Shown: in pieces, positions 42,878 through 61,922 of the stretch | How positions within the stretch are numbered: the stretch's first letter is position 1 | Layout of the letters: each line of letters opens with the position of its first letter | NCBI RefSeq assembly: GCF_000025705.1 | Contig: NC_013959.1 | Location: 1,789,063-1,853,062, forward strand | Source of the DNA: Sideroxydans lithotrophicus ES-1 | Lineage (GTDB): Bacteria > Pseudomonadota > Gammaproteobacteria > Burkholderiales > Gallionellaceae | DNA length: 64,000 bases | Reading direction: 5' to 3' | Program-made: the position numbers and the translations under genes | The notes under the pieces: model-generated | Seen by the model: only the letters and a program-made list of their open reading frames with translations | Database searches by the model: none | Told to the model about the DNA's origin: nothing

Positions 42878-44485
42878 TCAAGGAACAATCCAGTTTCCGT
42901 CAGCCACAAGCCGGGGGCCTGCCAGATCAGCGAATCGAACCATATACCCGCCTTTGGATGCGAAACGCTGGCCGGGCGCCAATCCCAGCCTCGGGTAGTA
43001 GCCGGTGATCACGCGATAGCTCAGCATGGTTTCCACGCGTTCCACCAGATAGTCGCGCACGAAGCTGTCCAGCATTCCGCTCAACGTCTCAGCCAGGATG
43101 CCGCAGGCCAGGTAGGTATCGGTCTGGACCCGTTCGTCGATGACGGGCATCTGGTGCACCTTGAACCACATGAATGGATAGTCCATGCGCACCCTGCGCT
43201 GGTCGGGCAGGTCGAACGGATAGGTCAGGCGGGCCGTTGTGCGCCAAGACGCCGGAACAGGTGCGTTTTCCAGTCCGCCCATCAGTCCGGAAATGAAAAT
43301 CGCCGGGGTGGCAGGCGGTGTTTTCGGTAGTGCGGCCAGGTCGCCCGGACGCAGCCAGAGCACGACCGCGCTATCGGCAGCCGCGTTCCTGATGGCGTCG
43401 GTCAGCGCCTGTGACGAACCCTGCTGCGGCAGCACAACATCGTTCACTTTCATCCGCGCGGACGGAAGCGCCACCCGTAACGCCTGCGCTGCCTGTTCTC
43501 CGATATCCCCGCGGCGGAATATCTGGGTAACCCTGAGCGGCTTCTGCTGCATTCCCCGAATCTGTTCTGCAATCAACTGCGCTTCGAGCAACACGCCCTT
43601 GGAAAAATAGACCGGATAAAAATCGTTTTCGGCGACGACCGGCGCATCCACGTTGGGCAGCAGGCAGGGGATCTCTTCGTCTTCGCAGAATCGATGGACA
43701 GGTGCCCAGGTCTTGCCGCCGAGTCCGGAAATGACTGCAAACACCGGCTCTGCCGCCAGCTTTTTGCGCAATTGCTGCTCCCACGTTTCCGGTGGCCCGC
43801 TCAGCTCCCACACATGCAATTGCCATTGCCGGATGACGCGGTATTTGATTTCCCGTACCGAGTGCATGGCCCGGTGGCCGCCGCGAATGAACGAGTTTTT
43901 GTCGGCAAAAAACTGGTTGAGCACCGACAGCATCGCCTTGCGCTTTACCGGATCGGCATCGGGCGTAATGATGGTGGCAAACTGCAGGGTGTCTTCAGAA
44001 ACGCCGGGCACCGGCTGGCTGGTCAGCTGCTTGAGGTAGGCGACGAGGGATGCCATGGTCGCGTCGTCCAGCTTGAACCGCGGCATCAGGTAGTTAAGCT
44101 TGCGTCCATCCGCATCAAGACCATCGCGGATAGCGCGGGCCAGCGTGGCATCGGTGTAGGCGCTGCGGTTGGGCCGGTAACCCGCGACGTGCGGCGTGGT
44201 CATATCCTCGATATTCCTGAGTCCGGCGCGAAACAGGTACTTGCCGATGATGGGCGGGATAACGTAGCGTCCCTCCTGCGTGCCGAGGCCGCTGCGGCGA
44301 TGGCAGGCAACGCAGGCCGCCTCTGCACCGGTAACATCGCCCCCCTCTGCCCGGGTTCCTTGCAGCACTGTTCCGTCGGGCAGCAAGCCCTGACGGTAGA
44401 GAGTTTCACCTGCAGACGCGGCAGGCGCCGCGGTCGCAACGGGATTCAGCAGGATGAACAGGATCAGGGCAGTCAGGACACGCAT
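42878..44485 (-). CDS. Cytochrome c fused to a periplasmic-binding-like domain
   Basis: A 535-residue exported protein. It has a signal peptide (LTALILFILLNPVATAAPA), then a class I cytochrome c domain at about 25-155 with the haem site C58-V-A-C61-H62 and a likely axial Met134 in YLMPRFKL. From about 165 to the end it has the alternating alpha/beta pattern of a type I periplasmic-binding fold (QFATIITPDADPVKRKAML; FAVISGLGGKTWAP; VVLWLRPGDLAALP), like ABC-transporter substrate-binding proteins for amino acids but with no transporter nearby. Last gene of the multicopper-oxidase operon, 20 bases after the Sco gene. Most simply a periplasmic electron acceptor with a ligand-sensing or docking domain; function inferred. 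Confidence 0.8.
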   Translation of the reverse strand: MRVLTALILFILLNPVATAAPAASAGETLYRQGLLPDGTVLQGTRAEGGDVTGAEAACVACHRRSGLGTQEGRYVIPPIIGKYLFRAGLRNIEDMTTPHVAGYRPNRSAYTDATLARAIRDGLDADGRKLNYLMPRFKLDDATMASLVAYLKQLTSQPVPGVSEDTLQFATIITPDADPVKRKAMLSVLNQFFADKNSFIRGGHRAMHSVREIKYRVIRQWQLHVWELSGPPETWEQQLRKKLAAEPVFAVISGLGGKTWAPVHRFCEDEEIPCLLPNVDAPVVAENDFYPVYFSKGVLLEAQLIAEQIRGMQQKPLRVTQIFRRGDIGEQAAQALRVALPSARMKVNDVVLPQQGSSQALTDAIRNAAADSAVVLWLRPGDLAALPKTPPATPAIFISGLMGGLENAPVPASWRTTARLTYPFDLPDQRRVRMDYPFMWFKVHQMPVIDERVQTDTYLACGILAETLSGMLDSFVRDYLVERVETMLSYRVITGYYPRLGLAPGQRFASKGGYMVRFADLAGPRLVADGNWIVP

Positions 44486-44505: not shown

Positions 44506-45144
44506 CTATGGGGTGGAGACGAGTTTTCGATACTCAAGCAGCAGGTCGTCCGCCGAGGCGAAGCCGTCTATCCTGAGCCAGGCTTTTCCGGGCGCCGCCC
44601 GCAATAGCGTTACCGGCGTGTGATCCATCTTGTCGCCGTAATACACGCCGAAAGCGCGCTGCGCGGCAAGGCTGGCTTCGCTGGTGCCGGTATAGAACTG
44701 CCACTGCGATTTGGCATCGTACTTATGCGCATATTCGGCCAGTTGCCTGGGCGTATCCTGCTCCGGGTCGATCGAGATCGAGATCATGTGGACCTTGTTA
44801 CGCTCGCTTCCGAGCTTCGCCTGCAGCTCTTGAAAGGTGTGGCTGGTGAGAGGACAAGCCGACGTGCAGGTGGTGTAGATGAAATTCATGATGACCGGCC
44901 GGCCATCGTTCATTTCGTCGGGGAGCAACACGGTCCGGTTGTCGTCGCGCACAAGTTCGACGCGGGGCACGTTGTAATTCATCGTCTTGCGTACCACTTT
45001 TTGCACCGCGTGATGAACATCGGCCGAGCCGGACATGTCCATCATTTCCATATGCATCCCATCATGTGCATAGGCACTGGTTGCGGCAGCACCGGACAGA
45101 CCGATGGCAAGCGCGGCCGCCAGGATAGTCAGGTTTGATTGCAT
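44506..45144 (-). CDS. SCO1/SenC family copper chaperone
   Basis: A periplasmic thioredoxin-fold protein of 212 residues. Sco proteins deliver Cu(I) to cytochrome oxidase CuA or related copper enzymes, or act as thiol reductases. The copper ligands are present: C93-x3-C97 in YTTCTSACPLTS and H175 in KMDHTPVTLL. A signal peptide ends near SAYAHDG, followed by a Met/His-rich stretch (GMHMEMMDM) that could also bind copper. In this operon its likely client is the multicopper oxidase rather than a terminal oxidase; that is inference from context. Confidence 0.9.
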   Translation of the reverse strand: MQSNLTILAAALAIGLSGAAATSAYAHDGMHMEMMDMSGSADVHHAVQKVVRKTMNYNVPRVELVRDDNRTVLLPDEMNDGRPVIMNFIYTTCTSACPLTSHTFQELQAKLGSERNKVHMISISIDPEQDTPRQLAEYAHKYDAKSQWQFYTGTSEASLAAQRAFGVYYGDKMDHTPVTLLRAAPGKAWLRIDGFASADDLLLEYRKLVSTP

Positions 45145-45160
45145 GATGCCTCCTTCAATT

Positions 45161-46003
45161 TCAGTCGGGCCGGGTGAATTCCGCGTCAGCCAACTTGGGA
45201 TTGAGCACCACTTGCTGGATCGAAATGTCTTCCGAACCCTTTACGCCCTCGACACTGGTTTCCATGGTGAACGGAATCTTGAGCCCCTTCACGGATTTGT
45301 AATCGCGGAAATAGGTCGCCACCTGTTTAGGCTTGCCGTCCATGCGGCGCGTACCGTCGATCTTCACGTCGAGGAAACTCTTGGCATCCACCCAGACATG
45401 GCGCACGTCGCCGTTCTTGAGGGTGAGCTTGAGCTTGTATGCATCGTTACCGTCCACTTTTTCGATGCCTTCCGATTCCACCCGGGTACCCTTGGCGGCG
45501 TAATCGATCAGGAATCCGTCCAGATCCTGCTGCTGGCTCGCCATTTTCATTTCTTCCGGGGTAAAGGGTTCGACCTCATGGCGCCCGAGGAAGGGCCGCA
45601 ATTTCCAGCCGTTGGTCCCGTCGTAGGCCTGGATCGCGGTATCGCCGCGGAATTTCATTTCGAAGCGCATCTTGTTCGGACGTGCCAGGTTCATCACGAA
45701 CGGCAGCCGAACCATTTTTCCTTCCGGTTCGCTTTTGATTTTGCCGGGATCGAAGTGCGTTTTTGTCAGTGCGTACATGGGAACGGGCGGCTTCGTCCTC
45801 AGTCTTCCCGCGTCGATCTTGCCCGTCATGCGCATGGTATGAATCGCACGCCACGCCTTTAGTCCGCCGCGCGCGGCAACATTTCTGTCGACGATCTGCT
45901 GCGCGGTAAGCGCACTGCCGGCAGCCGCATGTTTCTTGTTTGCGGCATAGGATGGTGTCGCGGCAAGCAATAAGCAAAGCAGTGTAATGAGTCGAGTAGT
46001 CAT
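45161..46003 (-). CDS. Secreted LolA-fold-like protein
   Basis: A 280-residue exported protein with signal peptide LITLLCLLLAATPSYA. The start of the mature part, TAQQIVDRNVAARGGLKAWRAI, followed by repeated amphipathic beta strands (MRFEMKFRGDTAIQAYDG; GNDAYKLKLTLKNGDV; HVWVDAKSFLDVKIDG), is what I associate with outer-membrane lipoprotein-sorting-protein-like (LolA/LppX fold) proteins. They have a hydrophobic cavity and often carry lipids. No lipobox Cys. It lies 16 bases from Sco and 10 bases after the small secreted protein. Role in the operon unknown. Confidence 0.7.
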   Translation of the reverse strand: MTTRLITLLCLLLAATPSYAANKKHAAAGSALTAQQIVDRNVAARGGLKAWRAIHTMRMTGKIDAGRLRTKPPVPMYALTKTHFDPGKIKSEPEGKMVRLPFVMNLARPNKMRFEMKFRGDTAIQAYDGTNGWKLRPFLGRHEVEPFTPEEMKMASQQQDLDGFLIDYAAKGTRVESEGIEKVDGNDAYKLKLTLKNGDVRHVWVDAKSFLDVKIDGTRRMDGKPKQVATYFRDYKSVKGLKIPFTMETSVEGVKGSEDISIQQVVLNPKLADAEFTRPD

Positions 46004-46013
46004 CTTGTTTCTC

Positions 46014-46526
46014 CTAATCCACGATCAATCCATCAATATGAAAATTGCCTATCACAACGTCGACGCTGCTGCCCACTTTGACTATCCTTCCGGGATTCCC
46101 GAAGATCATGTAATAGATCCGCTCCGGATTGGCCGCGATGTCCTGGCGCAACGTTCCGATATTTTCCAGCGTCGGAACGGCCAGCCGGGTGCCGCTCGCA
46201 TTGTCGATCAGGTATGGCCGCAACGTTTTGTCGAACAGTGCGTTGGCCTTGGACTTATCCAGCACGCGGAAACGAAATTCCAGCATCTCGCCCGACGATA
46301 CCGGATGTACGCCGACCACATCGACACCCCAATTGCGCTTGTAGTACAGACTGGGCCGGGTCCCGGCAAATTTCGTCTTGTTGCTTGCCGTCGGCGAAGC
46401 AGAGGCTGTTTTTTGGGCGACGGTTGCAGGGTTGTCCGCGGTGGCGGCACAAGAGCCCGGCGCCAGAAAAAAACCGCCCGCGAGCAAGCTCGCGAGCAGT
46501 AACCCACTTTCTGTTTTTATTATCAC
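46014..46526 (-). CDS. Small secreted protein of unknown function
   Basis: A 170-residue protein with an N-terminal signal sequence (SGLLLASLLAGGFFLAPGSCA), possibly a lipoprotein since the end reads GSCA, though this is not a strict lipobox. The mature part is basic and includes RPSLYYKRNWGVDVVGVHPV, then a beta-rich region (MLEFRFRVLDKSKANALF) and RLAVPTLENIGTLRQD. I do not recognise a family. It lies 10 bases after the giant gene's stop, inside the operon. Confidence 0.7.
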   Translation of the reverse strand: MIIKTESGLLLASLLAGGFFLAPGSCAATADNPATVAQKTASASPTASNKTKFAGTRPSLYYKRNWGVDVVGVHPVSSGEMLEFRFRVLDKSKANALFDKTLRPYLIDNASGTRLAVPTLENIGTLRQDIAANPERIYYMIFGNPGRIVKVGSSVDVVIGNFHIDGLIVD

Positions 46527-46536
46527 GGCCCGTCTC

Positions 46537-49500
46537 CTAGTTTCCGCTCAGCGGAATGTTGAACGTGCCACCGGAAGTAATGACTCTCGCATTGCCCCGG
46601 CGGTTCGCTGTGCTCGTCGCCGGAATCTGCGTGAAGGTCACATTCAGGTCGCAGTTGTTGCCTGCGGCCACGATCGCCCCCGCGGTGCAGGTCGAGTTCG
46701 GCGCGATGTGGAAGTAGGCGGCACCGCTGGTGATCGACGCGCCGAGTATCGTCAGGTTGCCGTCGCCCGCCCCGTTGTTGATCTGCGCGGTCAGGGTCGT
46801 GTCAGCCGGAGGCGCAGTACCGAAAGCGAGCGGCGACTGCGACAGCGTCGGAACCGTTCCCACTCCGCTCAACGTCACCGTCTGCAAGGTCGACGGTATC
46901 GTCGCGGTCTGGAAGGTGATGCGCAGTGTGGGCGTGAAAGTCCCTGCCGCGACAGGCGTGAAGCTCACGTTGACCGTGCAGGTGCCGCCAACAGGTACCG
47001 GGGTTGCCAGGCAATCGTTGGTCTGGCTGAAACGGTTCGAGTTGGTACCGGCAAAGGCAATGCCCGTGACGGTCAGCGGCCCGTACCCGGTATTGGTAAC
47101 GACTACCGGCTGGCTCACGCTGGTGGTGTTGATCAGCTGGCTGGTGAAGGTCAGCGTGGTCGGTGCCACAGACTGCGCCGGATGTGCGCCTGTGCCGTAT
47201 AGCTGCACTGTCTGTGTCAGGTTGCCAGTCCTTACAGTCACCGTTGCCGACCGCGTCACATAGGCATTCGGCGTGAACTGGACGCCAAACGTGCAGCTTG
47301 CCGCGGCTGCCAGTGGTGCACCGCAGTTGTTATTGACGATGGCGAAGTTGCCGTTGCCGCCAGTGATGTTAAGAGCGACACCTCCCGCCAGCGCAGCATT
47401 GCCGTTATTGCTTACCGTGATCACTTGCGCCGGGTAGAAGGTCGCCGGGATGCCGACCTGCTGCTGGCCGAAGTCGATCATTGCGGGCAACACCGACAGG
47501 TGGCCGGCACTGCCTGCAGAGGCTACCTCGTCGGCACCGATGTCGAAGCCTGTGCCTTGCGGACGGACCTGCGCGTCGACGTCGTGGTTGGGTGCCAGCT
47601 CGCTGCCGCCGTTATTCACAGCCGGCGACGCGGTGGCGATATGGTAGTCGCCGAAAGCGGCATAGGCCGTGCCTGCTGTACTGGTCGGTTTGATCAGGTA
47701 CAGCGGGCCGTAACGCACGTTGACGTAATTGTTGCCTTCGTCCACTGTCGGCACGGCCTGCATGGCTTTCATGCTTGGCGGATTGATGACTGCCGGGAAC
47801 TCGGGCATTACGCGCGAACCGTTGCAATACAGGTCAAGCAACAGCGGGTCGGTCGTCCTGTTGTGCGTCGTCGCGTTGTTGCCGTAACCGCTAGTACTGG
47901 TCAGCACGGAATAGACCGGATTCAGGCGCAAGTTGGCATTCCTGTTAGGCGTGACGCTGGTATCGCCCAGCACGCCGAGATCCCAGTAGGCCGGGCTGCC
48001 GGTGCATTGGCCGGTAACCGTCTGGGCCGGCAGTTGAGTGCAACCCGTGCTGCCGTTGTTGGAAGAACACAGCGCGCCCTGACCGGCCACCACACCGTAG
48101 CGGAACGAGCGGTTGTGCCAGACGATGTTGTTTTCCAGCATGGGCCTGGCGATCTGGTTGGCCACACGCACCGGATTGGTGACACTCGTCGAGATCGCGT
48201 TCATCAACTGCGGACTGGTCGGTTCAGCTGAGATACCAGCCGGACCCGGCCGCCCGTTGCCTGTCGAGGTCGCGGTTTCTCCAGTACCCGAAAGCAGGAC
48301 TCCAGCCGTACCGGTGCTGTCGTTCGAGGCGATGGTGTTGTTGATGATGGCGCTTGTATCGAGCACATCGCTCATTGAAATGCCGCCACCGACCCAGCCT
48401 GCCACGTTGTTGTCGATGATGTTGTTGCTCACCGTCACCTTGTTCCACGGAGCGAAGTTGCCCGGGAAGGCCTGTGTATCGGCGCCGTTCACCTGTTGCA
48501 GGCGTATGCCGCCGCCCTGGCCCGATTCCGCGAAGTTACCGCGGATGATGTTCGAATCGATGGTCAGGTTACCCGTACCCAGAGTCGCCGTTTGCAGCGC
48601 AAGCGTTGGCTCGCCGCCGACGAAGATGCCGCCGCCGTGGGTCGAGGTTGTCTGCTGGAAGCTCTGATTGAACAGGATCTCGTTGAACGCAATGGTGCCG
48701 TTCTGGCTGAAGCCGAGATGGCCGATACCGCCGCCGTCCGATTGGCTGAAGTTGCCGCAGATCCAGTTGTGGTCGACGCTGTAACCGTCAGTACCGGTGC
48801 AGATCGACACGCCGCCACCTGCACCGCCCTGGCCGGTGGTGCCTTCAACCACGCCGTTCTTGGTGATGGAATTGTGGTGGATACGCACGCTCTGGTCGTA
48901 ACCGAAGCCGGCGATGGCACCGTTGACCAAGGTGGGGCTTCCGGTCAGCAAGCCTTCAGGATTTTCGGACTGCCCCACATAGCCTGGTATTTCGAGGTAG
49001 GGAACACCGATGCGGACACCGCCATTCAGCGCACCGGCATTGCCGTATACGCGGTTGTTGGCGATTTCCAGATTGTGTGCCCAGCCGTTGACATAGATAC
49101 CGCCGCCGGCATCGCCGCCGGTGATGCTGACACCATCGATGCGTGATGGTGCGCAGAGGAAGTTGCTGAGCCCGGGCTGCGGTACAGTGTTGGCACCATT
49201 CACAAGATCGAACGCAACAGTCGTTGAGCTGTACGCGCAATCCGCGGCACTGGCCGTCAAGGGAGTTACACCATCGGCCTTGTAGCCCTTGGCCAGCACG
49301 GTGATGCCGGCACCTTCCTCGGTGCCCAGCACTGAGGGTTCAAGCAATACCACGCCGCCGGTGACTTCCTGGCCGGGTAGCGGATCGACCTGAGTACCCG
49401 TCGTGGACTGGTTGCCGGTGTTGGTATCAATACCGAACATGGCATTGATCCTTGGCCGCCAGACTTCCAGTTTGCTGGTCGGGTATTTGGCTGCGTTGAT

Positions 49501-52500
49501 GATGACATCAGCCGCGCCCACGCCTTGCAGGCGGACCGGCTTCCACATGATGTCCAGCTCGTTGTATGTGCCCGCATCGACCAGGATCAGGTCTCCTGGC
49601 TTGGCAGTGTCGATGGCCGCCTGGATGGTCTGACCGCTGGCACCCTGCACACGCACTGGTGCACGGTCTTCAAGCGTGACGGTCACTGTGTCGACGCTGA
49701 CCTTGCCGTTGGCGGCGGTGATCACGAGCTCGCCGCTTGGTGTATTGGCAGGCACATTGACGGTGATGCTGGCGTCGGTCCAGCTGGACACCTGCATAGT
49801 CCGGCCGCCGATGGTGACCTGGCTACCCGCACCCTGGGTGCCGAAGCCGTAGTGACGCAACAGCGTGCGCTTGCTGGCCGGACCGCTGGTGGCGAAGGGA
49901 CCCGCATAGGCGGGGTTCTGCACCTGCTGGTCGCCCAGCGCGGTGATGGTCAACGTGCCGCCAGCAGTGGTCAGGTAAGGCCCGAAGCCGGCACTGCTAT
50001 CCACGCGCAGGATGGCCGGGGTTGCGTCCGGGTAGGCGCAATCGGTCGGGTTGTAACCCGCCGCAAAGGCAGCGATCGGCAACACCGGCGTATCCAGATA
50101 GGTCGACTGCCCGGGCATGAACGGATTGGTGTAGCAGAAGTTGCTGTAAGCCGGGTTGTATTGCGGGTCGGTGATCTTCGCGGCCAACGCAGCCGTGGCG
50201 ACCACGTTGCCGTTTACGTCGACATATTGTCCAAGCGCATTGGTGGCCGGAATCGGGCCCGGATCGTTCATGCAGTTGATGAGCATGTTGGGTCCATAGC
50301 CGGACGGAGTCGGCGGATTCACCAGCCAGCTCGACGGCAACATCATGTTGTATGCGCCCCACTGGTCGGAATAGGTACGGCTGATCTCGCGGCCATTGAA
50401 GTCCTTGGTCGACACCGGAACGAACGGCACGGAAGCCTTCTCGCCGAAATCGGGCGCCGCCGCGTTGTACTCCGACGAGGCATCGTCAAGGATGATGCCG
50501 GTGTTGTTGGCGGCGACAGGCACTTCGGTGAAGACGAAGAACGTGGCACTGGCTTGCGTCTGGTCAGTCAGGGTGACCAGCTTTCTGTCACACAGCGGTC
50601 GATCCATGCCGGCGAACGGCGCGACCTGTTGCGCGGCCGGGAACAGGCTCAGGTAATCGGGCACGCGGTGCATATTGCCCACGCATTCCGGGAAAGAGAT
50701 CATCGATGCCGTCACCCCCAGATCCGACGTCGGATTGCTCTGGAAGCCGGGATCGCCGGTGTTCGGGTCGAACGGGTTCCCGTCATTCAACGTGGCCTGG
50801 TCGGGCAGGATGAAGATGCTGGCCAAGGGGCCGAATTGCTGCGTTGTCTGCGCGTTGAAAGCGTCGCCGACGAGGATGTTCTTGTCTTCTTCCTTGACGA
50901 TTTCATAGCCCGGCGGTGTCACGGCCTCGACCACGTACTGGCCGGGCGGCAGGCTGACCAGCGTTTGGCCGAATGCAGCCTGCGCCGCAGTCAGCGGATG
51001 CGCCGCGACATAGGCCGCACTCGGGAAATTGTAGCGCCCGTCATATGGAGCCGGCTGTACCTGGTTCCAGTTGTGGAAACCGTCGTAGCAACGGAATTGA
51101 TCGTTGTTCAATGTGTAGTTGGTGAACGGATCGACCTGGGTCGTGTTGTATGGTGGCAATGCGCCTGCCGCCGGTCCCGGCAATTGCCCCGGGCACTGCA
51201 TGTTGACTTGTGCTCCCGCCGTCACGCCAGCGGCCGCGGGAACCCCCGTGACGGGATTCCGCAACACCCCGTCTGCGCCGAGAATATAGTTCGCGCCATC
51301 CGAACCCTTGACAGTGTTCGCCCAGTCGTCCCAGCTGGACGTCTGCGTGGTATCGACCAGTTTCAGCGTCTTGGTGCCGTCGGGCAAGGTTGTCTGCTGG
51401 TACAAGTTCACCGTGACGCGCGGCACCAGCGGTTCCCAGATGGTCTGGATGTTGTAACGCTGGTCGTCAAACGGGCGCGTACTGCTGTAAACCACGGTGC
51501 CCTGGATGCCACCGTTCTCGCCCGGCGCGTAGGGTACACGTCCCCAGTTGATCAGGTTACGCTGGCTGATGAAACCCTGATTACCGTATGAATATGAACC
51601 AGGCACCTGCACGACGTTTGAACTGCAGGGCGCTCCTCCCGGACAGGCTGCATAGGTCGAGCTCCATAGTCCGGCACCAGGGCCGGTCGCATCCACCGCA
51701 CCGCCGGCATCGACGAAGATATTGACGCCGGTCTGTTTGTAGCGCGTGGTGTCGGCTTCGCTCACATACCAGTTGAACAGCGGGAACAGTTCGGCCAGCA
51801 GACCGTTGCCGTTGCTGTCGGTCAGCGTCTGGTTGGAGATGGCACCGTTACGGAAACGGTTCGTCATCAGCGCATTGGGTATGCCGGGTTCACCGGGGTC
51901 ATAGACGCCGTTCTTGTTGAGGTCCATGAACAGGTTCTGGTCATGCTGCGTGAACCAGCTCAACACCGGGATGTTGCCGAGAGCGACATTGGCGGTGCCA
52001 ACGACGACTGCCTGGGTCTGGATGATCTGGTCCAGCCACTGGTCCCACACCGCCAGTTCATAAGTGCCCGGCGGGACGCCCGTCAGGGTGAAGTTGCCGT
52101 TCGCATCGCACTGGGCGGCAGCGATGGAAGGCCCGGTGCCGCTTTGCGAATTCAGTGCGACCTGGCAGGTCGTCGAGCTGAGCAGGTCATATGCGCCGGA
52201 ATCGTACAGCGTCACGTCAGACGGATGCGACATATGCTCATTGGTGACATGTCCGGTGACCGTCTGCGCGCCGGTCAACCCGTTGGCCGCCGCATAGGCT
52301 GCCACGTGCGCCGGATTGACGAAGCCGATCGTGGTATGGAATCCGGGCGGGCCGAATTCCTGGAAGTACACGGGCTCCTTGACGCCGGTAAAGGCATCCT
52401 GGGCGGGCGTTCCTTCCAGTGTCTCGGTTTGCCACCAGACCTCGCCGGCTCCCTCGCGCCCCGCGCCCGGATGGGCATACACGTCATAGCGTGCCGGTGT

Positions 52501-55158
52501 CAGGTTCTTGATCAAGGCGTGTCCAGCCAAGGCGTATTTGGCAGGATCGGCTTGGGCAGTGCCAGCATTGGGATCGTTCGGGCAGGTGTAGATGACACCT
52601 ACGACGTTGCCGGTAGCACTGGTGGCGGTGCCGTTGGTTTTGGTATTCCTGTCATCCGGGCAACCCGGCCTGCCGAGCAGCCAGTTGCTGAGCGGCATGT
52701 TGAAGGCATCGTAGGTTTGCTGGCCGGCGGGATCGCCAGTACGTCCGGCCGGGTCGAACAGGATGATGTTGAATCCGCCGAGCCCGTTTTCGTTGAGGTC
52801 GTTTTGCCCGTTGGTCGGCGCATTGTCCTCATAGATATAGACACTCAACTGTGCCGGTTCGAGCGGAGTGGCCTGCAATGCGATTGAAACCGGATTCCAG
52901 GCTTTGGCGGTGGTGGTACCAACTTGTACTTGCGGCTTGATTTCCGCGCCGCCCATCATGTGGCCGCTGCCGGCCGGGTCGCAAACTGTGGGATCGGTAC
53001 TGCCGCAGCCGCCCACCGGGTTCCCGGCATCGCCGGGCAGGATGGAAATGTAGTAGTTCTTGGTTGGATCCAGAACGGCATCGGCGATCTGCGTCGCAAC
53101 CTGTGCGGCAACCGCGGCGCCGCGCACCTGCTGTCCGCTACCGCAGCTCACGGCACCGACGCAACCGGTTGCGATCACCGGCATGTTGCTCCGGTGGAAA
53201 CTGGTGCCCAGCGTGCGCGTCCCCAGCACGGGTGTTCCGGTCGGGTCAACCTTGAATGTCTGGTCTTCCTGGATGGTCCAGCGATAATCCGTAATTGCCA
53301 TCCCGCTGGTCGCATCGACCACGGCCACATTGAGTCCGGTCGCCATGCCGGCGGGAACAAATGTGACGGTGGCAGTGGCGGGCGAGCTGGCGGTGCCCTG
53401 CGAATTGGTGGCCACATAGGTGAACTGGCAGGATGTCGTGCCGGTATTGGGAATTGCGGTAAATGATCCATCCGGGTTCACCGTTACCGAACTGCAAGTG
53501 CCCGCCGTGGCCAGCGATGCCGTCAGCGGGTACGAGCTTGGATCGCTGGCGTTGGTCAGCAAACCGGGACGCGATGCCGAGAACGTGCTGGCCAGGGTGC
53601 TGGTATAGGTTTGGGTGGCGGCTGTCGGTGCACCGCCGGTTCCGCTCGCGGCGACGTTCAATGTCACCGTTGCCGTTTGGCCGGTCGTATTGCTCGCCGT
53701 ATAAGTGAAGGAATCGGTTCCCCTGAATCCCGCCGTTGGAGTGTAGATGAAAGTCCCGTCTGCATTGAAGCTCAGCGTGCCGGTGGCAGGTTGTGTAAGC
53801 GTCGACAATGTGGCGACTGCAATGTCGTTGAGTTTTACGTTGCCGTTGATCGCGGTGCTCAGGGGCACCTGATAGGAATCGTTGACCACTGTTGGTGTGG
53901 CAACGGCGGAAAATACTCCCGCTGCATAGCCGGTCGCAGTCGTGGTGTCGACTGGCTGATTGACCAGCAGGAATCCCTGCTGGCCGCCATCCGGCCCGTT
54001 TGCCGTGGTCAGGCTGAGCTGGCGGTCGAAGACACCAAATGTCGAGGGATTGAACTGACCGGCGGTGACTGACGGATTGACGATCACATCGTACGTCTTG
54101 CCTGCCGTGAGCAGCACCTCATCCTGAATTTTCGGAATGCCGGGTGCGACATTGCCATCCTCGGCGACGAGCGACATCGGCAGGCCGACCACGGTTGGGA
54201 TGTGCGTGTGCGAGCCGGCGTTCAGAAAGCGCAGCAGCACATTGCCACTCGATTCGGAGGCGCCCACCGCGAACGCGGACTTCTGTGGCGCGGATTTGTC
54301 GTAGGCCTGGCCGTTGATCAGGAAATAGGTGGGTGTGTAATTCACTGCCGCCGGGTAACAGGTGTTTGCGGTGCTGGTGTTGCATGACGGGTCGTTCCAG
54401 CGCAGGTTCACATTGGTGCCGGCCATTGCCGCCGTGTCCACCTGGGCGTTCTGGATCGGGTCGATTTCGCTGAACAGCAGGGTTGCGTCGGAATCATAAG
54501 GGACACCGGCGCCGGCGTTGGCGGCAGGATAGGCATTGCCGCTGGCGAACGTCGTCACCGTGGTGCCATTTGGCACTGCAGGCGCCTGGGTCACGATCAG
54601 CACGCCGTAGAGTCCCATCGGTACCTCCAGCGATGGCAAGGTGGCGGCCTCATAAATGTAGCTGCCGGGACGCAGATTGTTCCAGGTCAATGTCGTGGGA
54701 GTCGTGCCGTTCGCGGCGACTTCGGTTGCCCATGACATCGCACGATCCAGTTGCGGTGGTGGTACGAATGCGGGGCTGGCCGCTGCGTTGTTCGGGAAGG
54801 TGCTGAAATTTTGCGCCGGATGTGCCGGGCTCGGCATCCGCGTCGGCATGCCCATGCCGCCGCCCAATTGCCCCAGGACCATGATGGAGGTCGGCACCGG
54901 CAGGCTGTTGGTCAGGTTGATTTGCAGCGTGTCGCCGGGTGCTGCGACGATGGTCGGCCCCGGAGCCCAGGCAGCGGTGCATGCGCCGGTGGTGCAGTAT
55001 CCCCACATCGGCACTATAGCCCCGTCCGGCAAAGTGGCATTCATGCGTTGCGCAGTCAGGTTGACGGGGATGGTCGCTGCGGCAGCGGCACCGGCGTCCA
55101 TGAGCATGACGACGGAAAGTATGGTCCACAGAGTCGCTTTGATATTAGGGGTTCTCAT
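46537..55158 (-). CDS. Giant secreted mosaic protein with degenerate cupredoxin start
   Basis: A 2,873-residue exported protein; ATG 55158 has AAGGAG upstream. After a signal peptide (about 1-28), residues about 28-410 are multicopper-oxidase-like (APGPTIVAAPGDTLQINLTNSLP; PMGLYGVLIVTQAP; YFLINGQAYDK) and parallel the neighbouring 520-residue oxidase, but the copper motifs are reduced to one HTH (317-319). Then come two bacterial Ig/cadherin-like domains (about 420-600), SdrD-B-like repeats with Ca-site character (DLNKNGVYDPGEPGIPNA), an IPT/TIG domain near 1775-1815, a right-handed beta-helix of the NosD/pectate-lyase type from about 1840 (TIQAAIDTAKPGDLILVDAG) to 2540, and three or four choice-of-anchor/HYDIN-type domains to the end (FGQQQVGIPATFYPAQVITV). 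No membrane or sorting tail is visible. Probably an extracellular matrix or scaffold protein of the oxidase system. Confidence 0.82.
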   Translation of the reverse strand: MRTPNIKATLWTILSVVMLMDAGAAAAATIPVNLTAQRMNATLPDGAIVPMWGYCTTGACTAAWAPGPTIVAAPGDTLQINLTNSLPVPTSIMVLGQLGGGMGMPTRMPSPAHPAQNFSTFPNNAAASPAFVPPPQLDRAMSWATEVAANGTTPTTLTWNNLRPGSYIYEAATLPSLEVPMGLYGVLIVTQAPAVPNGTTVTTFASGNAYPAANAGAGVPYDSDATLLFSEIDPIQNAQVDTAAMAGTNVNLRWNDPSCNTSTANTCYPAAVNYTPTYFLINGQAYDKSAPQKSAFAVGASESSGNVLLRFLNAGSHTHIPTVVGLPMSLVAEDGNVAPGIPKIQDEVLLTAGKTYDVIVNPSVTAGQFNPSTFGVFDRQLSLTTANGPDGGQQGFLLVNQPVDTTTATGYAAGVFSAVATPTVVNDSYQVPLSTAINGNVKLNDIAVATLSTLTQPATGTLSFNADGTFIYTPTAGFRGTDSFTYTASNTTGQTATVTLNVAASGTGGAPTAATQTYTSTLASTFSASRPGLLTNASDPSSYPLTASLATAGTCSSVTVNPDGSFTAIPNTGTTSCQFTYVATNSQGTASSPATATVTFVPAGMATGLNVAVVDATSGMAITDYRWTIQEDQTFKVDPTGTPVLGTRTLGTSFHRSNMPVIATGCVGAVSCGSGQQVRGAAVAAQVATQIADAVLDPTKNYYISILPGDAGNPVGGCGSTDPTVCDPAGSGHMMGGAEIKPQVQVGTTTAKAWNPVSIALQATPLEPAQLSVYIYEDNAPTNGQNDLNENGLGGFNIILFDPAGRTGDPAGQQTYDAFNMPLSNWLLGRPGCPDDRNTKTNGTATSATGNVVGVIYTCPNDPNAGTAQADPAKYALAGHALIKNLTPARYDVYAHPGAGREGAGEVWWQTETLEGTPAQDAFTGVKEPVYFQEFGPPGFHTTIGFVNPAHVAAYAAANGLTGAQTVTGHVTNEHMSHPSDVTLYDSGAYDLLSSTTCQVALNSQSGTGPSIAAAQCDANGNFTLTGVPPGTYELAVWDQWLDQIIQTQAVVVGTANVALGNIPVLSWFTQHDQNLFMDLNKNGVYDPGEPGIPNALMTNRFRNGAISNQTLTDSNGNGLLAELFPLFNWYVSEADTTRYKQTGVNIFVDAGGAVDATGPGAGLWSSTYAACPGGAPCSSNVVQVPGSYSYGNQGFISQRNLINWGRVPYAPGENGGIQGTVVYSSTRPFDDQRYNIQTIWEPLVPRVTVNLYQQTTLPDGTKTLKLVDTTQTSSWDDWANTVKGSDGANYILGADGVLRNPVTGVPAAAGVTAGAQVNMQCPGQLPGPAAGALPPYNTTQVDPFTNYTLNNDQFRCYDGFHNWNQVQPAPYDGRYNFPSAAYVAAHPLTAAQAAFGQTLVSLPPGQYVVEAVTPPGYEIVKEEDKNILVGDAFNAQTTQQFGPLASIFILPDQATLNDGNPFDPNTGDPGFQSNPTSDLGVTASMISFPECVGNMHRVPDYLSLFPAAQQVAPFAGMDRPLCDRKLVTLTDQTQASATFFVFTEVPVAANNTGIILDDASSEYNAAAPDFGEKASVPFVPVSTKDFNGREISRTYSDQWGAYNMMLPSSWLVNPPTPSGYGPNMLINCMNDPGPIPATNALGQYVDVNGNVVATAALAAKITDPQYNPAYSNFCYTNPFMPGQSTYLDTPVLPIAAFAAGYNPTDCAYPDATPAILRVDSSAGFGPYLTTAGGTLTITALGDQQVQNPAYAGPFATSGPASKRTLLRHYGFGTQGAGSQVTIGGRTMQVSSWTDASITVNVPANTPSGELVITAANGKVSVDTVTVTLEDRAPVRVQGASGQTIQAAIDTAKPGDLILVDAGTYNELDIMWKPVRLQGVGAADVIINAAKYPTSKLEVWRPRINAMFGIDTNTGNQSTTGTQVDPLPGQEVTGGVVLLEPSVLGTEEGAGITVLAKGYKADGVTPLTASAADCAYSSTTVAFDLVNGANTVPQPGLSNFLCAPSRIDGVSITGGDAGGGIYVNGWAHNLEIANNRVYGNAGALNGGVRIGVPYLEIPGYVGQSENPEGLLTGSPTLVNGAIAGFGYDQSVRIHHNSITKNGVVEGTTGQGGAGGGVSICTGTDGYSVDHNWICGNFSQSDGGGIGHLGFSQNGTIAFNEILFNQSFQQTTSTHGGGIFVGGEPTLALQTATLGTGNLTIDSNIIRGNFAESGQGGGIRLQQVNGADTQAFPGNFAPWNKVTVSNNIIDNNVAGWVGGGISMSDVLDTSAIINNTIASNDSTGTAGVLLSGTGETATSTGNGRPGPAGISAEPTSPQLMNAISTSVTNPVRVANQIARPMLENNIVWHNRSFRYGVVAGQGALCSSNNGSTGCTQLPAQTVTGQCTGSPAYWDLGVLGDTSVTPNRNANLRLNPVYSVLTSTSGYGNNATTHNRTTDPLLLDLYCNGSRVMPEFPAVINPPSMKAMQAVPTVDEGNNYVNVRYGPLYLIKPTSTAGTAYAAFGDYHIATASPAVNNGGSELAPNHDVDAQVRPQGTGFDIGADEVASAGSAGHLSVLPAMIDFGQQQVGIPATFYPAQVITVSNNGNAALAGGVALNITGGNGNFAIVNNNCGAPLAAAASCTFGVQFTPNAYVTRSATVTVRTGNLTQTVQLYGTGAHPAQSVAPTTLTFTSQLINTTSVSQPVVVTNTGYGPLTVTGIAFAGTNSNRFSQTNDCLATPVPVGGTCTVNVSFTPVAAGTFTPTLRITFQTATIPSTLQTVTLSGVGTVPTLSQSPLAFGTAPPADTTLTAQINNGAGDGNLTILGASITSGAAYFHIAPNSTCTAGAIVAAGNNCDLNVTFTQIPATSTANRRGNARVITSGGTFNIPLSGN

Positions 55159-55185
55159 GGCTGAGCTCCTTCGCAATGGTTGCTT

Positions 55186-56748
55186 TTATAGAGATTCGTC
55201 GATGTACCAGGTGAACGGGTCGACGATCAGCATCATCATCATTCCGCCCGGAAACACATCGTTCGTTGTTATCTCGCGCTCGTTGTGGGAGTGCCACATG
55301 TACGCATAGCCTGCTTCAGAGGTGGGGCCGTTGAAGTTCAGCGTCCCCGGTGGCAGCGGTGTCGAGTTGAAGCCTGAGTTGGAGGACTGTATGCCCAGAT
55401 AAGGCGTACCCGCGTACCACTGGCCGTTGGCGACGATCTGCGGATCAGGCGGCGTGATCGGGATAGGTTTGTTGTGGTCGGCGCACCATTCGCCATAGTT
55501 GGGGGCGAAATTCGTCGCCGTCGGATCGTTCGATACGCCGACCGTGTTGTAGCCGTAGGCATCCGGGTTACAAACGATGGGGTGCGACACCCCGCCTGCG
55601 TCGACCCATTGGTCTCCGCTATGATGGTTGTACACGTCCCAGTTCAATCCTTTGCCAGTCCAGGTGAAGATCGCATCGACGGTCTGCCCGGACACCGTGG
55701 GAATGGTGAACAACAACGGCCCGGCCAGTTTGGTCGCATCGCTCTGGCTCACTATCAGATTGCCGTCGCGTGCCAGCACGCGTGCATGGTTGCCGTGGAA
55801 GTGGAACGGATGCTGCCAGCGTCCCTGCCCGACCACGCGCATCAGCAGTCGCTCGCCGGGGTGGATGTGCGGGTTGCCGTTGTAGGGCTGGTGGATGTAC
55901 GACGCGGAATAGGAGGCGTCCATGTCGTCCGGCATCGAGCGGCCGTTGATCAGGAAATAATTGGGGCGGTAGGGTTCGGTGGTAACCATGATCTCGGGGC
56001 ATGATGTCGCGCCACCAGCCACGCTGGCAGCGCAGGAATTGACCTGATCCAGCGCCTGCTGGTGCATACGCGAATCGATCTCGCTGAATTCGAACAGATA
56101 CTCGCGGTCGTAACAGGTCGCCGCGTGATCGTATGCGGTCGCCGCGAGCGAAAAAGGTCCCTGGGTGCATCCTGTCGGCGCTGCCATGGTTGGCAATACG
56201 ACAATGGCTCCGTAAAGACCCATCTGGATCTGCAACTCGGGCTGGGTGCCGCTGTAATAGGAATAGGTGCCTGGATGGGTAGGCGTGAACGTGTAGCTTA
56301 CCGTGCTGCCCGGTGCAGCTTCCTGCACCATCGCGCCGCCCACGCCGCCGCTCGCCGTGACCTGGAAGCCGGGAAACACAATCGAGGTATTTCCTGCTGC
56401 CAAGGGCAAGGAATTGGTCAGATTGATCGTGACGGCCTGGCCTTCAGTCACGATCATGGTCGGCCCCGGCAATTGCATGAGCGGGCAATTGGGTGCCGGG
56501 CCTGCGACGCCGGTCGCGGGCCTGGCCGCGAAACCGCTGGGCGTGGTGGTACAGCCGTAGCCCCAGGAATAGATCATGGCTCCGTCCGGCTGGCTGATGT
56601 AATCGGCGCTTGCGGTGAGATTGAAAACCGGCCCCGTGATGCCGTTGACCTCAGCTTGCGCCGTTGCTGCAAACAGCAGGCAAGTCGCGGCCGCGGAGGC
56701 AAAGAACCAGGAGGCGAGCCGGCGGAAATTTCTTGTCATTGGATTCAT
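55186..56748 (-). CDS. Multicopper oxidase-like protein, T2/T3 half
   Basis: A 520-residue exported protein with Sec-type signal (WFFASAAATCLLFAATAQA). Cupredoxin domains are visible: LPGPTMIVTEGQAVTINLTN, IQMGLYGAIVVLP, YFLINGRSMPDDMDA. The copper motifs are HPFHFHGNH (H313, H316, H318, H321) and, near the C-terminus, YMWHSHNERE (H486, H488). HxHG plus WHSH is the pair that in laccases gives type 2 and type 3 copper ligands; there is no HCH motif, so no type 1 copper here. The ATG at 56748 has AGGAGAACGACC before it, ten bases after the preceding oxidase gene. It probably works with that protein (see findings). Paralog of the giant protein's N-terminus. Confidence 0.85.
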   Translation of the reverse strand: MNPMTRNFRRLASWFFASAAATCLLFAATAQAEVNGITGPVFNLTASADYISQPDGAMIYSWGYGCTTTPSGFAARPATGVAGPAPNCPLMQLPGPTMIVTEGQAVTINLTNSLPLAAGNTSIVFPGFQVTASGGVGGAMVQEAAPGSTVSYTFTPTHPGTYSYYSGTQPELQIQMGLYGAIVVLPTMAAPTGCTQGPFSLAATAYDHAATCYDREYLFEFSEIDSRMHQQALDQVNSCAASVAGGATSCPEIMVTTEPYRPNYFLINGRSMPDDMDASYSASYIHQPYNGNPHIHPGERLLMRVVGQGRWQHPFHFHGNHARVLARDGNLIVSQSDATKLAGPLLFTIPTVSGQTVDAIFTWTGKGLNWDVYNHHSGDQWVDAGGVSHPIVCNPDAYGYNTVGVSNDPTATNFAPNYGEWCADHNKPIPITPPDPQIVANGQWYAGTPYLGIQSSNSGFNSTPLPPGTLNFNGPTSEAGYAYMWHSHNEREITTNDVFPGGMMMMLIVDPFTWYIDESL

Positions 56749-56758
56749 GGTCGTTCTC

Positions 56759-58306
56759 CTAGTCGACACGAATCTCGGTCATCATCCCGCCGAAGTTTTC
56801 AGCATCGTTGGAAAGACGATTGAGATTGGTGGTGTAGAGGAAGTAGGTGCAGGGGGTTGTGGCGGTGCAGTTCGCATAATCGGGACTGCTTGCATCCAGG
56901 ATCGCATCCGTGGACTCGCCACCTCCCAGGGTGATCGAGTTGGTTGTGTAATACAGATTGTTGCCGGCCATGTCGCGCAACAGGCGCGCATTGTCTGCGA
57001 TCACCTGCATCGGGATGCCGACCGTGGCGAGCGTATGGAACTCGGTGACATTGAGGTCGGAAATGCGCAGTAGCGCGCGGGTCTGACCAGCGCTTCTCTT
57101 GATCTCAATCAGGGTAGGCAGAGGTTGCGACGGCCGTGAAATTCCGTCAGATGACAAAGTTGCCATCGGCCCGTTGATTACCGGTTTGCCATCCAGGCCA
57201 GTGCCTGTATTAGTAACGTTGGTGTTGATGGTGTCCGGATAGCTGCGGCCGCTCAGCATGAAGTACTTGTCGTGCATGTCGGCGAATGCTTCCGGATTAA
57301 ACGTCATGCCTACATAGTGGAAATTGGGGTCGAAGCTCATCATCTGGATCGGGTACTCGACGTCATAGCGGGTCGAGCCGTCGCCATCGTTGTAAGCGTA
57401 CGTGGCTGTGCCGTTGTTGGTGACGCCGGTTGCGCCGCCGCTGGCCAGATTGGCGGTGACGGGCAGCGGAGTTTGCCCGGTGCACAGGATGTCGCTACAG
57501 CCGACGCCGGTTGCTGCCGGATCGACTGCCGCTTTCTTGTTTGCCGCTTCCAGTGCCGCTCCGATGTCGCCATTGACCCGGTTCTGACGTGGGCGCACAT
57601 AGAGTTGCCCCACCATACCCATTTGCAGGTGTTCGGGCGGTGTAATGTGACAGTGCCAGAAATAGGTTCCGGCATCGGGCGCAGTGTAGTAATAGGTGAA
57701 GCTGCCCGCGATGTTAATGGCAACCGATGCGTCCGGCACGCCGTCAAAATATGAAGAAGCGTTGGGATAGCCGTGGAAGTGCACGGTGTGCTGCTCGAAC
57801 AGGTCCGGCCGCATGATCATGCCGACATTGCTCAAGGTCAGAAAGAATTCGTCATCCTCGTCGATTGCCATCGTCGGCGCCGGAGAGTTGGCGGACAGGA
57901 CGCCGTTGTTCATGATGGCTGCCGGTTCTATGCTGGCCGCATTGAGATCGTTCGGATCATTGGTGGGATTATTGAACACGTCAGCCGTCACGGTTCCAGG
58001 CAGCCCTTGATCAAGATTGCTCGTGCCTGAAAGCGGGCCAAACCCGAACAGGTATATCTGATGGCCGTCGCCCATGGTGGCAAAGCCGTCACCGCCGGCT
58101 ATTTCCTGGCATTTGACCACGCCCGGATGATTCGGATCGACGGTGGACCCGTTGGGGTGAAGCGTGGTCGTGCTCGGGCATTGCACGCGAAACGATGCGC
58201 TATAGGCCAGAGAGGAGAACAGTGAAATTACTGCCGCAAACCCAAGTACGAAAAACTCGAGCACATACTTCCGTACCGGATGGCTTGATGTTGTCGCATT
58301 TTTCAT
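56759..58306 (-). CDS. Multicopper oxidase-like protein, type 1 copper half
   Basis: A 515-residue exported protein, first gene of the operon. After the signal segment (LEFFVLGFAAVISLFSSLAYS) the first cupredoxin domain carries H173-T-V-H176-F-H178-G and, 40 residues on, H218-C219-H220 ... H226 ... M231 (YFWHCHITPPEHLQMGM). These are the motifs that provide the type 1 copper (Cys, His, Met) and half of the type 2/3 ligands. The second half (TYAYNDGDGSTRYDVEYPIQ; YFMLSGRSYPDTIN; ALLRISDLNVTEFHTLATVG) is cupredoxin-like without copper motifs. I chose ATG 58306 with GGGGG upstream; in-frame Met codons at 58318 and further upstream are possible. The substrate cannot be read from the sequence. Confidence 0.87.
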   Translation of the reverse strand: MKNATTSSHPVRKYVLEFFVLGFAAVISLFSSLAYSASFRVQCPSTTTLHPNGSTVDPNHPGVVKCQEIAGGDGFATMGDGHQIYLFGFGPLSGTSNLDQGLPGTVTADVFNNPTNDPNDLNAASIEPAAIMNNGVLSANSPAPTMAIDEDDEFFLTLSNVGMIMRPDLFEQHTVHFHGYPNASSYFDGVPDASVAINIAGSFTYYYTAPDAGTYFWHCHITPPEHLQMGMVGQLYVRPRQNRVNGDIGAALEAANKKAAVDPAATGVGCSDILCTGQTPLPVTANLASGGATGVTNNGTATYAYNDGDGSTRYDVEYPIQMMSFDPNFHYVGMTFNPEAFADMHDKYFMLSGRSYPDTINTNVTNTGTGLDGKPVINGPMATLSSDGISRPSQPLPTLIEIKRSAGQTRALLRISDLNVTEFHTLATVGIPMQVIADNARLLRDMAGNNLYYTTNSITLGGGESTDAILDASSPDYANCTATTPCTYFLYTTNLNRLSNDAENFGGMMTEIRVD

Positions 58307-58446
58307 GGCAACCCCCATGCTGTAGTTGCTACAAGTGAAAACCATCGTCGTTGGCCATTGTTATCAACACCGGGCCCGGCGCGGTACTTTGACTAGTTGG
58401 CGTGGAGTTTATTGCGTGTCCTGGATTGAAGCAGTGGGGTGGAACT

Positions 58447-58498: not shown

Positions 58499-58888
58499 TC
58501 ACATCGATGACGAAAAGCCCGCCATAACAGACTTGACCATTTGCAGAATCTCTTCTTCGCTCATTGAACCTTTGGGAATAAAGTGGCTTGCGCCTGCATC
58601 GAAAGCTGCTTGGCGATACTCGGGCAAGTCATAGGCCGTGATGACGATCACGGTGGTATCGGCATGGCTGACCTTGATGGCTTTGGTCAGGATGAGTCCG
58701 TTCGCGTCGGGCAAATTGACATCCATGAACACCAGATCGGGCACGCAATCCTGAATCTGTTCCAATGCAGCTTTACCTGCATCGGCTTCTGCAATGGACA
58801 ACGACGGAAAACCGGAACTCAGGATATGGTTGAGCGAGTGGCGAAAATCCGCATTGTCATCAACAATTAGCGCTGACGTTTTGTTCAT
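58499..58888 (-). CDS. Receiver-only response regulator
   Basis: A 129-residue CheY-like protein with one receiver domain and no output. The acidic pair is D10/D11, the phosphoacceptor D56 in LVFMDVNLPDAN, the Thr/Ser position VIVITAYD, and the Lys in HFIPKGSM. The sequence is of the NarL/LuxR receiver subtype. It points toward the oxidase operon and is 192 bases from it; it is divergent from the PAS kinase. It may take phosphate from that kinase and act by protein contact or as a phosphate sink. Confidence 0.88.
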   Translation of the reverse strand: MNKTSALIVDDNADFRHSLNHILSSGFPSLSIAEADAGKAALEQIQDCVPDLVFMDVNLPDANGLILTKAIKVSHADTTVIVITAYDLPEYRQAAFDAGASHFIPKGSMSEEEILQMVKSVMAGFSSSM

Positions 58889-59129
58889 AAGGGGCGCCCG
58901 TAGTTATCGTCCAATCGGTGAACGAACAGCATGCAATTTATATTCTTGGTACCCAAAGGACGATACAGTAAGCAGTGTATATTTCTGCTGCCGAGGCCGT
59001 ATCGCCAATACGCATATCCTTTGTCACAATAGGGCCGGACGCACCACAACAAGCTGGACAAGCTCATGGAACAGGTTTTCAATTGGCGGCGGGCACCACA
59101 AATGCATTGAAACATTTGAGGGGGAAGCT

Positions 59130-61262: not shown

Positions 61263-61922
61263 TCACGACATCGAAACCATCCCTTTTTCGATGGCATAAG
61301 ACGTCAGCACGGCGGCATTGTGCAGATTGAGCTTGCGCATCAGGTTGGAGCGGTGCTTTTCCACAGTCTTGACGCTCACGCACAGGTAGCTTGCGATATG
61401 CTTGTTGCCCTGTCCTTCGGCGATGAGCTTTAGCACTTCTCGCTCACGTAATGTAAGCGTATCCCAGGCTGATGCCGGATTGATGCCCTTGCCGCCGTCA
61501 AGGTAGCCGTTAACGACTTTCTCCGCGATATCGGGGCTAAGGTAGGTCTTGCCGTTGAGGACGCTTTTGATCGCCAGAATCAATTCGTCATGAGTGGCGT
61601 GCTTGAGCACGTAGCCGTCCGAGCCGGCGTGCAGGGCTTCACGGATATACTCCTCCGCCTTGTGTACCGTGAGAACCATTATCTTGATCGCGGGATAACG
61701 CTTTTTGATTTCCCTGATCGACTCGGTGCCGTTGGTGCCCGGCATGGAGAGATCCATCAGGATCAGGGTTGGAGAAAGACTGCCGGCCAGGCGGATCGCA
61801 TCCTTGCCGTTATCTGCTTCGCCGACGACCTCGATGTTCGGATCGGAAGACAGCAGCGAGCAAATTCCCTGCCGTAATAACGTGTGGTCTTCCACCAAAA
61901 GAATGCGCTGTTTCTGGTTCAT
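61263..61922 (-). CDS. LuxR/NarL-type response regulator
   Basis: A 219-residue DNA-binding regulator. Receiver at 5-122 with phosphoacceptor D57 (LILMDLSMPGTNG), and a LuxR-type helix-turn-helix at about 153-215 (LTLREREVLKLIAEGQGNKH then VSVKTVEKHRSNLMRKL). It is convergent with the NarX-type kinase, 48 bases apart, and is its probable partner. The oxidase operon is a reasonable target, given that it is the only large accessory unit nearby; not demonstrable from sequence. Confidence 0.93.
   Translation of the reverse strand: MNQKQRILLVEDHTLLRQGICSLLSSDPNIEVVGEADNGKDAIRLAGSLSPTLILMDLSMPGTNGTESIREIKKRYPAIKIMVLTVHKAEEYIREALHAGSDGYVLKHATHDELILAIKSVLNGKTYLSPDIAEKVVNGYLDGGKGINPASAWDTLTLREREVLKLIAEGQGNKHIASYLCVSVKTVEKHRSNLMRKLNLHNAAVLTSYAIEKGMVSMS

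Follow-up and report, generated by a model that had tools for sequence, protein, structure and literature searches.

A seven-gene cluster with a giant cupredoxin frame

The window, meaning the whole 64,000-nucleotide stretch of Sideroxydans lithotrophicus ES-1 DNA that was analyzed, holds seven closely spaced genes that run in the same direction in the order P0003, P0002, P0001, P0008, P0007, P0006, and P0005. The third of these, P0001, had been described in a sequence-only reading as a 2,873-residue mosaic protein built on a dead oxidase copy, and our analysis confirmed that observation as a whole: the frame is real and occupies the minus strand from 46537 to 55158. An alternative TTG start at 55176, six residues earlier than the ATG at 55158, gives 2,879 residues, and P0001 residue numbers are counted here from the TTG. 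The seven genes are as follows.

56759 to 58345, minus strand: P0003, 528 aa, bearing the T1 copper site plus the trinuclear half that belongs to domain 1 (ligand alignment)
55186 to 56769, minus strand: P0002, 527 aa, bearing the trinuclear half that belongs to domain 2 and lacking a T1 site (profile match, ligand alignment)
46537 to 55158, minus strand: P0001, 2,873 aa from the ATG, a dead two-cupredoxin subunit followed by Ig-like repeats, a conserved scaffold, and a variable tail
46014 to 46526, minus strand: P0008, 170 aa, with relatives in fused and separate clusters
45161 to 46003, minus strand: P0007, 280 aa, LolA-like (under the Pfam cut-off)
44506 to 45144, minus strand: P0006, SCO1/SenC copper chaperone (Pfam match)
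42878 to 44485, minus strand: P0005, with one CxxCH heme motif (motif and Cytochrom_C Pfam match)

This gene set matches the published Slit_1812-1818 of the same strain, which encode a predicted cytochrome, an SCO1/SenC protein, and small hypothetical proteins together with three cupredoxin proteins, of which the third is much larger, lacks canonical motifs, and has adhesin-like and polysaccharide-lyase-like domains (PMC12016527). Already in print are the cluster itself and, for Slit_1816, the absence of the motif, the large size, and those domains. P0005 corresponds to the gene product named MofC-like in PMC5566968 and a predicted cytochrome in PMC12016527. In the excerpts of these two papers used here, divided ligands, a ring, and a dead subunit and scaffold encoded by separate genes go unmentioned. 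A search of the full-text literature, which has most subscription journals outside its reach, found no split site, ring, or fusion of this kind and, on the cluster, only PMC12016527; heterodimeric fungal laccases were among the matches listed for heteromeric or split multicopper oxidases.

One copper site divided between two genes

Copper ligands were counted in alignments of P0003 (86 rows), P0002 (86 rows), and the P0001 N-terminus (78 rows), the window copy included. Loci L001 to L003 are the window itself, and the 86 rows contain what look like at least two repeats (L004/L045 and L005/L092); in the first round of counting, rows below a length limit were left out beforehand. The ligand motifs of the two smaller proteins lie at the following positions.

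57770 to 57790, minus strand: HTVHFHG, P0003 residues 186-192, three histidines in 86 of 86 rows
57614 to 57655, minus strand: HCHITPPEHLQMGM, P0003 residues 231-244, T1 Cys and Met and T3 His pair, ligands in 86 of 86 rows
55792 to 55812, minus strand: HPFHFHG, P0002 residues 320-326, three histidines in 86 of 86 rows
55273 to 55293, minus strand: HSHNERE, P0002 residues 493-499, H493 and H495 in 85 of 86 rows, with 1 gap

In domain 1 of P0003, H186, H189, H191, H231, C232, H233, H239, and M242 were found in all 86 rows, and none of the 86 had His at the four trinuclear positions of domain 2. P0002 showed the complementary pattern. Its domain 2 carried H320, H323, and H325 in every row, with Ser and never Cys between the histidines of the HSH motif, and its domain 1 had Cys in none of the 86 rows and a single His, at the first position of HCH, in just 6. 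No trinuclear His pair was present at the reciprocal sites of any of the three subunits in the aligned rows. T1 ligands in the N-terminal domain were seen in P0003 (86/86), with Cys absent from P0002 (0/86) and from the P0001 N-terminus (0/78), and no subunit of the trio bears both trinuclear halves on one chain. These counts indicate that each trio supplies one set of T1 ligands and one set of trinuclear ligands in total, split between P0003 and P0002, and this half-site split is invariant among the aligned rows. Without a T1 site and with half the trinuclear ligands, P0002 alone would not be an active oxidase.

The profiles of P0003 and P0002 both found 3g5w as their best match among solved structures. 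That of P0003 falls on domain 1 of 3g5w (HTIHWHG, HCH...H), and that of P0002 covers both, the HxHG stretch falling in domain 2. The model of P0003 was weak (pLDDT 71.6, with low-confidence stretches at about 178-183 and 192-207) and matched 2zwn and 3g5w at Z 21.7 each. Two cupredoxin domains per chain are indicated by models for P0003 and the P0001 N-terminus and by the 3g5w profile match for P0002. Single-chain relatives from the same searches served as the control, and 10 of 10 hold both halves in one chain. No single-chain fusion of P0003 and P0002 was seen; a long P0002 frame in locus L035 overlaps P0003 in another reading frame.

The closest known systems are the type C two-domain enzymes, such as 3g5w of Nitrosomonas europaea and 2zwn, which share with the trio the fold, through P0003 the T1 site in the N-terminal domain, and the motifs, HxxHxHG and HCH lying in domain 1 and HxHG and H[DS]H in domain 2. 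However, a type C enzyme has both halves on one chain, whereas in the trio they are on two gene products, accompanied by a third copy with neither. According to PMC13151041, two-domain multicopper oxidases form a trimer in which the trinuclear cluster is coordinated by two protomers, and in type C enzymes the N-terminal domain holds the T1 copper; the Streptomyces two-domain enzyme is treated as a homotrimer (PMC10419308). The OmpB/MofA systems resemble the trio cluster in having a MofC-like cytochrome and, in some cases, an SCO1/SenC gene (PMC5566968), both of which the window cluster holds as P0005 (one CxxCH, Cytochrom_C in Pfam) and P0006 (Pfam). They differ in having a single oxidase gene, and PMC5566968 states that there is no sequence homology to OmpB/MofA.

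Canonical motifs have been reported for Slit_1817 and Slit_1818 and none for Slit_1816 (PMC12016527), which favors the view of the literature that the three proteins act separately, two of them being multicopper oxidases and the third an adhesin whose binding head is cupredoxin-like. The division of the ligands argues against this, since P0002 and P0003 have half the trinuclear ligands each in all relatives and a homotrimer of either would, by the 3g5w pattern, contain no complete site. We therefore regard separate action as very improbable.

The N-terminus and scaffold of the giant frame

The segments of P0001 are listed below.

53977 to 55080, minus strand: dead two-domain multicopper-oxidase unit, residues 33-400 (AlphaFold2 model, no ligands)
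54610 to 54651, minus strand: EAATLPSLEVPMGL, residues 176-189, where P0003 has HCHITPPEHLQMGM; T1 site lost except Met
54184 to 54204, minus strand: HIPTVVG, residues 325-331, where P0002 has HPFHFHG; both trinuclear His positions lost
53362 to 53898, minus strand: Big_9/cadherin-like repeats, residues 427-605, also on most short stand-alone dead subunits
47524 to 53343, minus strand: conserved scaffold, about 612-2551, encoded separately in 8 of 8 distant loci
51730 to 51933, minus strand: SdrD_B-like domain, residues 1082-1149 (Pfam/NCBIfam scan)
49687 to 49848, minus strand: IPT/TIG domain within the scaffold (E 1.9e-4)
48256 to 48705, minus strand: right-handed beta-helix-like stretch, about 2158-2307 (E 2.1e-5, 24.7 bits)
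46540 to 47379, minus strand: choice-of-anchor D repeats, about 2600-2879, variable tail (Pfam/NCBIfam scan)

The N-terminus had been aligned by eye with the neighboring oxidase, P0002 (527 aa), and this homology was borne out by BLASTP (E 1e-19, 29% over 343 columns; for residues 34-294, 35% and E 2e-14), with all of the sequence blocks named earlier present. The reported loss of the copper motifs also stood. HPFHFHG of P0002 aligns with HIPTVVG of P0001, and HSH (493-495) aligns with FDR (P0001 383-385), so that of these histidines only the first, H325 in P0001, is left. Among the 78 rows, His occurs at the T328 position in none and at the V330 position in 1, and the T1 positions have Cys in none. 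No trinuclear His pair was found in these rows, in which isolated single histidines are limited to 2 rows in domain 1 and 1 row in domain 2. The AlphaFold2 model of this region (pLDDT 87.5, pTM 0.87) adopts a complete two-domain multicopper-oxidase fold, with 3g5w as the best structural match (Z 26.5, rmsd 3.5, 280 residues) and 2zwn at Z 26.0. The predicted fold and the ligand alignment, in which no complete copper set appears, identify the N-terminus as an oxidase homologue devoid of copper ligands.

The sequence-only reading had further proposed that an oxidase duplicate had been turned into a docking module on a long extracellular scaffold that perhaps holds the active oxidase, or else the mineral product, outside the cell. 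The oxidase homology and the fusion to a scaffold are upheld. A recent dead duplicate is rejected, because the ligands are lost in all rows with a residue at those positions, bar the single-His exceptions, and because the same loss is seen where the dead subunit is a separate short gene. Docking, joined to the long scaffold, is the most likely role of the P0001 N-terminus, but the neighbor to be held is a half-site and not a complete oxidase. That interpretation is therefore partly supported, and a third subunit that closes an oxidase ring is, we infer, the better description of the docking.

Two residues of the old sites bear on a different role. H325, the first His of its motif, is kept in 76 of 78 rows, with 2 gaps, and all 78 rows keep the T1 Met; since both persist though the sites are lost, a noncatalytic function of this unit is possible. 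The N-terminus might then bind a partner other than the oxidase (mineral, substrate, or copper for delivery), with the scaffold presenting that function. The old sites hold no metal-binding cluster, which argues the other way, and we give this alternative very little weight against a ring-closing subunit.

Beyond the dead unit, the Pfam/NCBIfam scan matched Big_9 (1e-15), SdrD_B (4e-10), choice-of-anchor D three times, and choice-of-anchor Q. Of the tail domains that had been named, the Ig-like, SdrD_B, and choice-of-anchor domains were recovered; however, IPT/TIG was detected only when its segment was scanned alone (1.9e-4), and Beta_helix fell slightly below threshold (2.1e-5; 24.7 bits against a cut-off of 25.9 bits). 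Sixty-seven other long relatives align along P0001 as far as residue 2550, with an identity of about 26 to 67% per 50-residue block and more than 40% in most blocks, and in this set the scaffold shows the same degree of conservation as the dead unit. The tail of choice-of-anchor D repeats is variable, with the low coverage there stemming partly from cut loci, and such repeats also occur in some acidobacterial giants. An assembly or chance fusion of separate genes was ruled out: the same fused frame recurs in many independent genomes, and the 67 long relatives align to it.

In eight distant trios (L123, L126, L127, L128, L129, L141, L142, and L143), the dead subunit and the scaffold are apart. 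The third gene is short in all eight (388 to 707 aa, some cut by contig ends) and encodes the dead two-domain unit, often with Big_9-like repeats, and a separate gene of about 1,680 to 1,970 aa lies directly upstream of P0003 (8/8). This separate gene matches P0001 from about residue 615 to 2550, and in several cases its N-terminus starts at the P0001 fusion boundary. None of the 8 short dead subunits has oxidase motifs, and the motifs are intact in 8 of 8 P0002 and 8 of 8 P0003 copies. Because the two parts are separate genes in all eight distant loci, P0001 is a fusion. Both arrangements, fused and separate, were found within genomes G101 and G239.

Just downstream of some separate-scaffold trios, we observed a subtilase with the same Big_9/cadherin repeats (14797-17154 in L141 and 11934-14264 in L129), which may process surface proteins. 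The L141 protein is a Peptidase_S8 by Pfam, and that of L129 was assigned by repeat match and sequence only.

Distribution, a second split family, and a proposed oxidase ring

A contig scan with the P0003 alignment gave 538 confirmed candidates, which are not necessarily all trios, and the best 80 of the 538 were analyzed. P0002 followed P0003 in 79 of these 80, the contig ending in the other, and the order P0003, P0002, P0001-like was found in 76 of the 80, the contig ending first in the other four. The trio gene set occurs in dozens of bacteria, with records assigned to Burkholderiales, Gallionellaceae, and Sideroxydans metagenome-assembled genomes (MAGs), to many Acidobacteria, and to one MAG each of Myxococcales and Deltaproteobacteria. 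Clusters also lie on megaplasmids of Paraburkholderia (6 records) and Cupriavidus metallidurans (2 records), and in one Paraburkholderia megaplasmid record examined, the trio genes are annotated as hypothetical proteins. Close P0002 relatives were present in six of 274 Gammaproteobacteria-class genomes besides the window genome. Within the order, a P0003 relative at E 1e-20 occurred in 6 of 250 genomes, the window genome included, and a P0005 relative was found in all six versus 1 of the remaining 244. Among viral contigs, 19 pattern matches for relatives were obtained and none was confirmed. One acidobacterial genome (G884, locus L037), of seven genomes searched, has five separate P0001-like giants with frames of 3,056 to 3,502 aa.

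We propose, with better-than-even confidence, that P0003, P0002, and the P0001 N-terminus form a ring of six cupredoxin domains with one working site, tethered on an outer scaffold. The three units would be diverged copies of one type-C-like two-domain oxidase, the third being the first 400 residues of P0001, and would assemble in a 1:1:1 ratio so that only one of three interfaces works. Domain 1 of P0003 would provide the T1 copper and four trinuclear histidines, domain 2 of P0002 would provide the other four, and the P0001 N-terminus would close the ring with no copper of its own. Through the covalent fusion, the conserved scaffold of about 1,900 residues would carry the ring and hold the oxidase outside the cell, where it would oxidize an outside electron donor (for S. 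lithotrophicus ES-1, this may be Fe(II) at mineral surfaces) and reduce O2. SCO1 (P0006) may load copper, and the c-type cytochrome P0005 may exchange electrons. We infer the ring, its composition, export, substrate, and tethering from what was observed, namely, homology, fold, invariant complementary ligands, gene order, and the fused and separate forms. The extracellular location of the trio proteins is predicted, here as in the published papers.

Multicopper oxidases in multisubunit complexes have a precedent in the Bacillus manganese oxidase MnxEFG. Unlike in the trio, the oxidase site of MnxEFG lies within MnxG, and its partners are not known to be oxidase copies.

Slit_1816 to Slit_1818 all rise together late on magnetite (PMC12016527, Table 1). 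Their late percentiles are 79.3, 74.8, and 29.5, respectively, on fresh magnetite and 13.7, 0, and 0 on Fe(II)-citrate. It is this expression that suggests Fe(II) in magnetite as a substrate. Many carriers, such as soil Acidobacteria and Paraburkholderia, are to our knowledge not known as iron oxidizers, and the general substrate may therefore be another than Fe(II). The wide difference in trio abundance on fresh magnetite (29.5, 74.8, and 79.3) counts against the ring, as do the weak P0003 model (pLDDT 71.6), the branching that is sensitive to ligand columns, and a second family that splits the site without a third gene.

This second family comprises adjacent genes of about 320 to 390 aa with complementary half-sites in 7 of 7 loci (L146 to L152). 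In subunit A, domain 1 carries HxxHxHG and HCH and domain 2 carries no motifs; in subunit B, domain 1 has none and the His motifs are in domain 2. Some B subunits have Tat-like signals. No third oxidase-like gene lies beside the A/B pairs in the 7 loci. Since these pairs seem to manage without one, a dead third subunit is in principle dispensable, and P0003 and P0002 alone could be the enzyme (as A2B, AB2, or a larger ring). The P0001 N-terminus would then be a surface module of its own, homotrimeric or monomeric, that does no more than dock on that enzyme. However, the dead subunit is the next gene in every trio locus in which the contig continues, with or without a scaffold, and it has a complete fold and is conserved over the entire two-domain unit. 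We consider a two-protein enzyme unlikely, and a three-subunit ring remains our preferred reading.

In trees, the five subunit types formed one clade each and were grouped together, apart from single-chain relatives, with FastTree support for the joint group of 0.97 with all columns and 0.99 without ligand columns. P0003 grouped with pair subunit A (0.92 and 0.93, respectively). The P0001 N-terminus was sister to P0002 with all columns (0.999) but not without ligand columns, so this sisterhood, which an origin of the dead subunit from the P0002 side would predict, depends on those columns; the order among the P0001 N-terminus, P0002, and pair subunit B shifts once they are removed. IQ-TREE likelihood topologies agreed with FastTree on the same two column sets, the support values being those of FastTree.

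A broader reading, to which we assign an even chance, is that of a heterotrimeric oxidase with a two-chain site and a silent third subunit on a scaffold of about 1,900 residues, which evolved stepwise from a homotrimer by duplication and complementary site loss. The split pairs would then be a living intermediate of that process, and the enzyme would serve an iron oxidizer on solid minerals. If so, homomeric, paired, and triple stages would all be present in living genomes, giving a clear example from bacteria of how loss of redundant sites can make a symmetric enzyme ring asymmetric. It would explain why a magnetite-responsive cluster of a model iron oxidizer has three "oxidase" genes, none of them complete, and it predicts that Slit_1817 or Slit_1818 expressed singly should be inactive. 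An oxidase tied to a surface scaffold would also bear on how cells reach electrons in solids.

P0008 (46014-46526, minus strand) has no Pfam/NCBIfam match and is retained beside both fused and separate trios. When MofC-like relatives were checked for a MofA-like gene, locus L167 had a PilY1-like protein and L166 (genome G714) an ordinary three-domain multicopper oxidase flanked by SCO1-like and MofC-like genes; because of L166, the SCO1/MofC-like accessory pair is not trio specific. A PAS histidine kinase gene (58794-61214, plus strand) lies upstream of and divergent from the oxidase genes, followed by a LuxR-type response regulator gene (61263-61922, minus strand), and a response regulator is also found near the Paraburkholderia cluster (L131). 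The kinase and response regulator are possibly regulators of the oxidase cluster.
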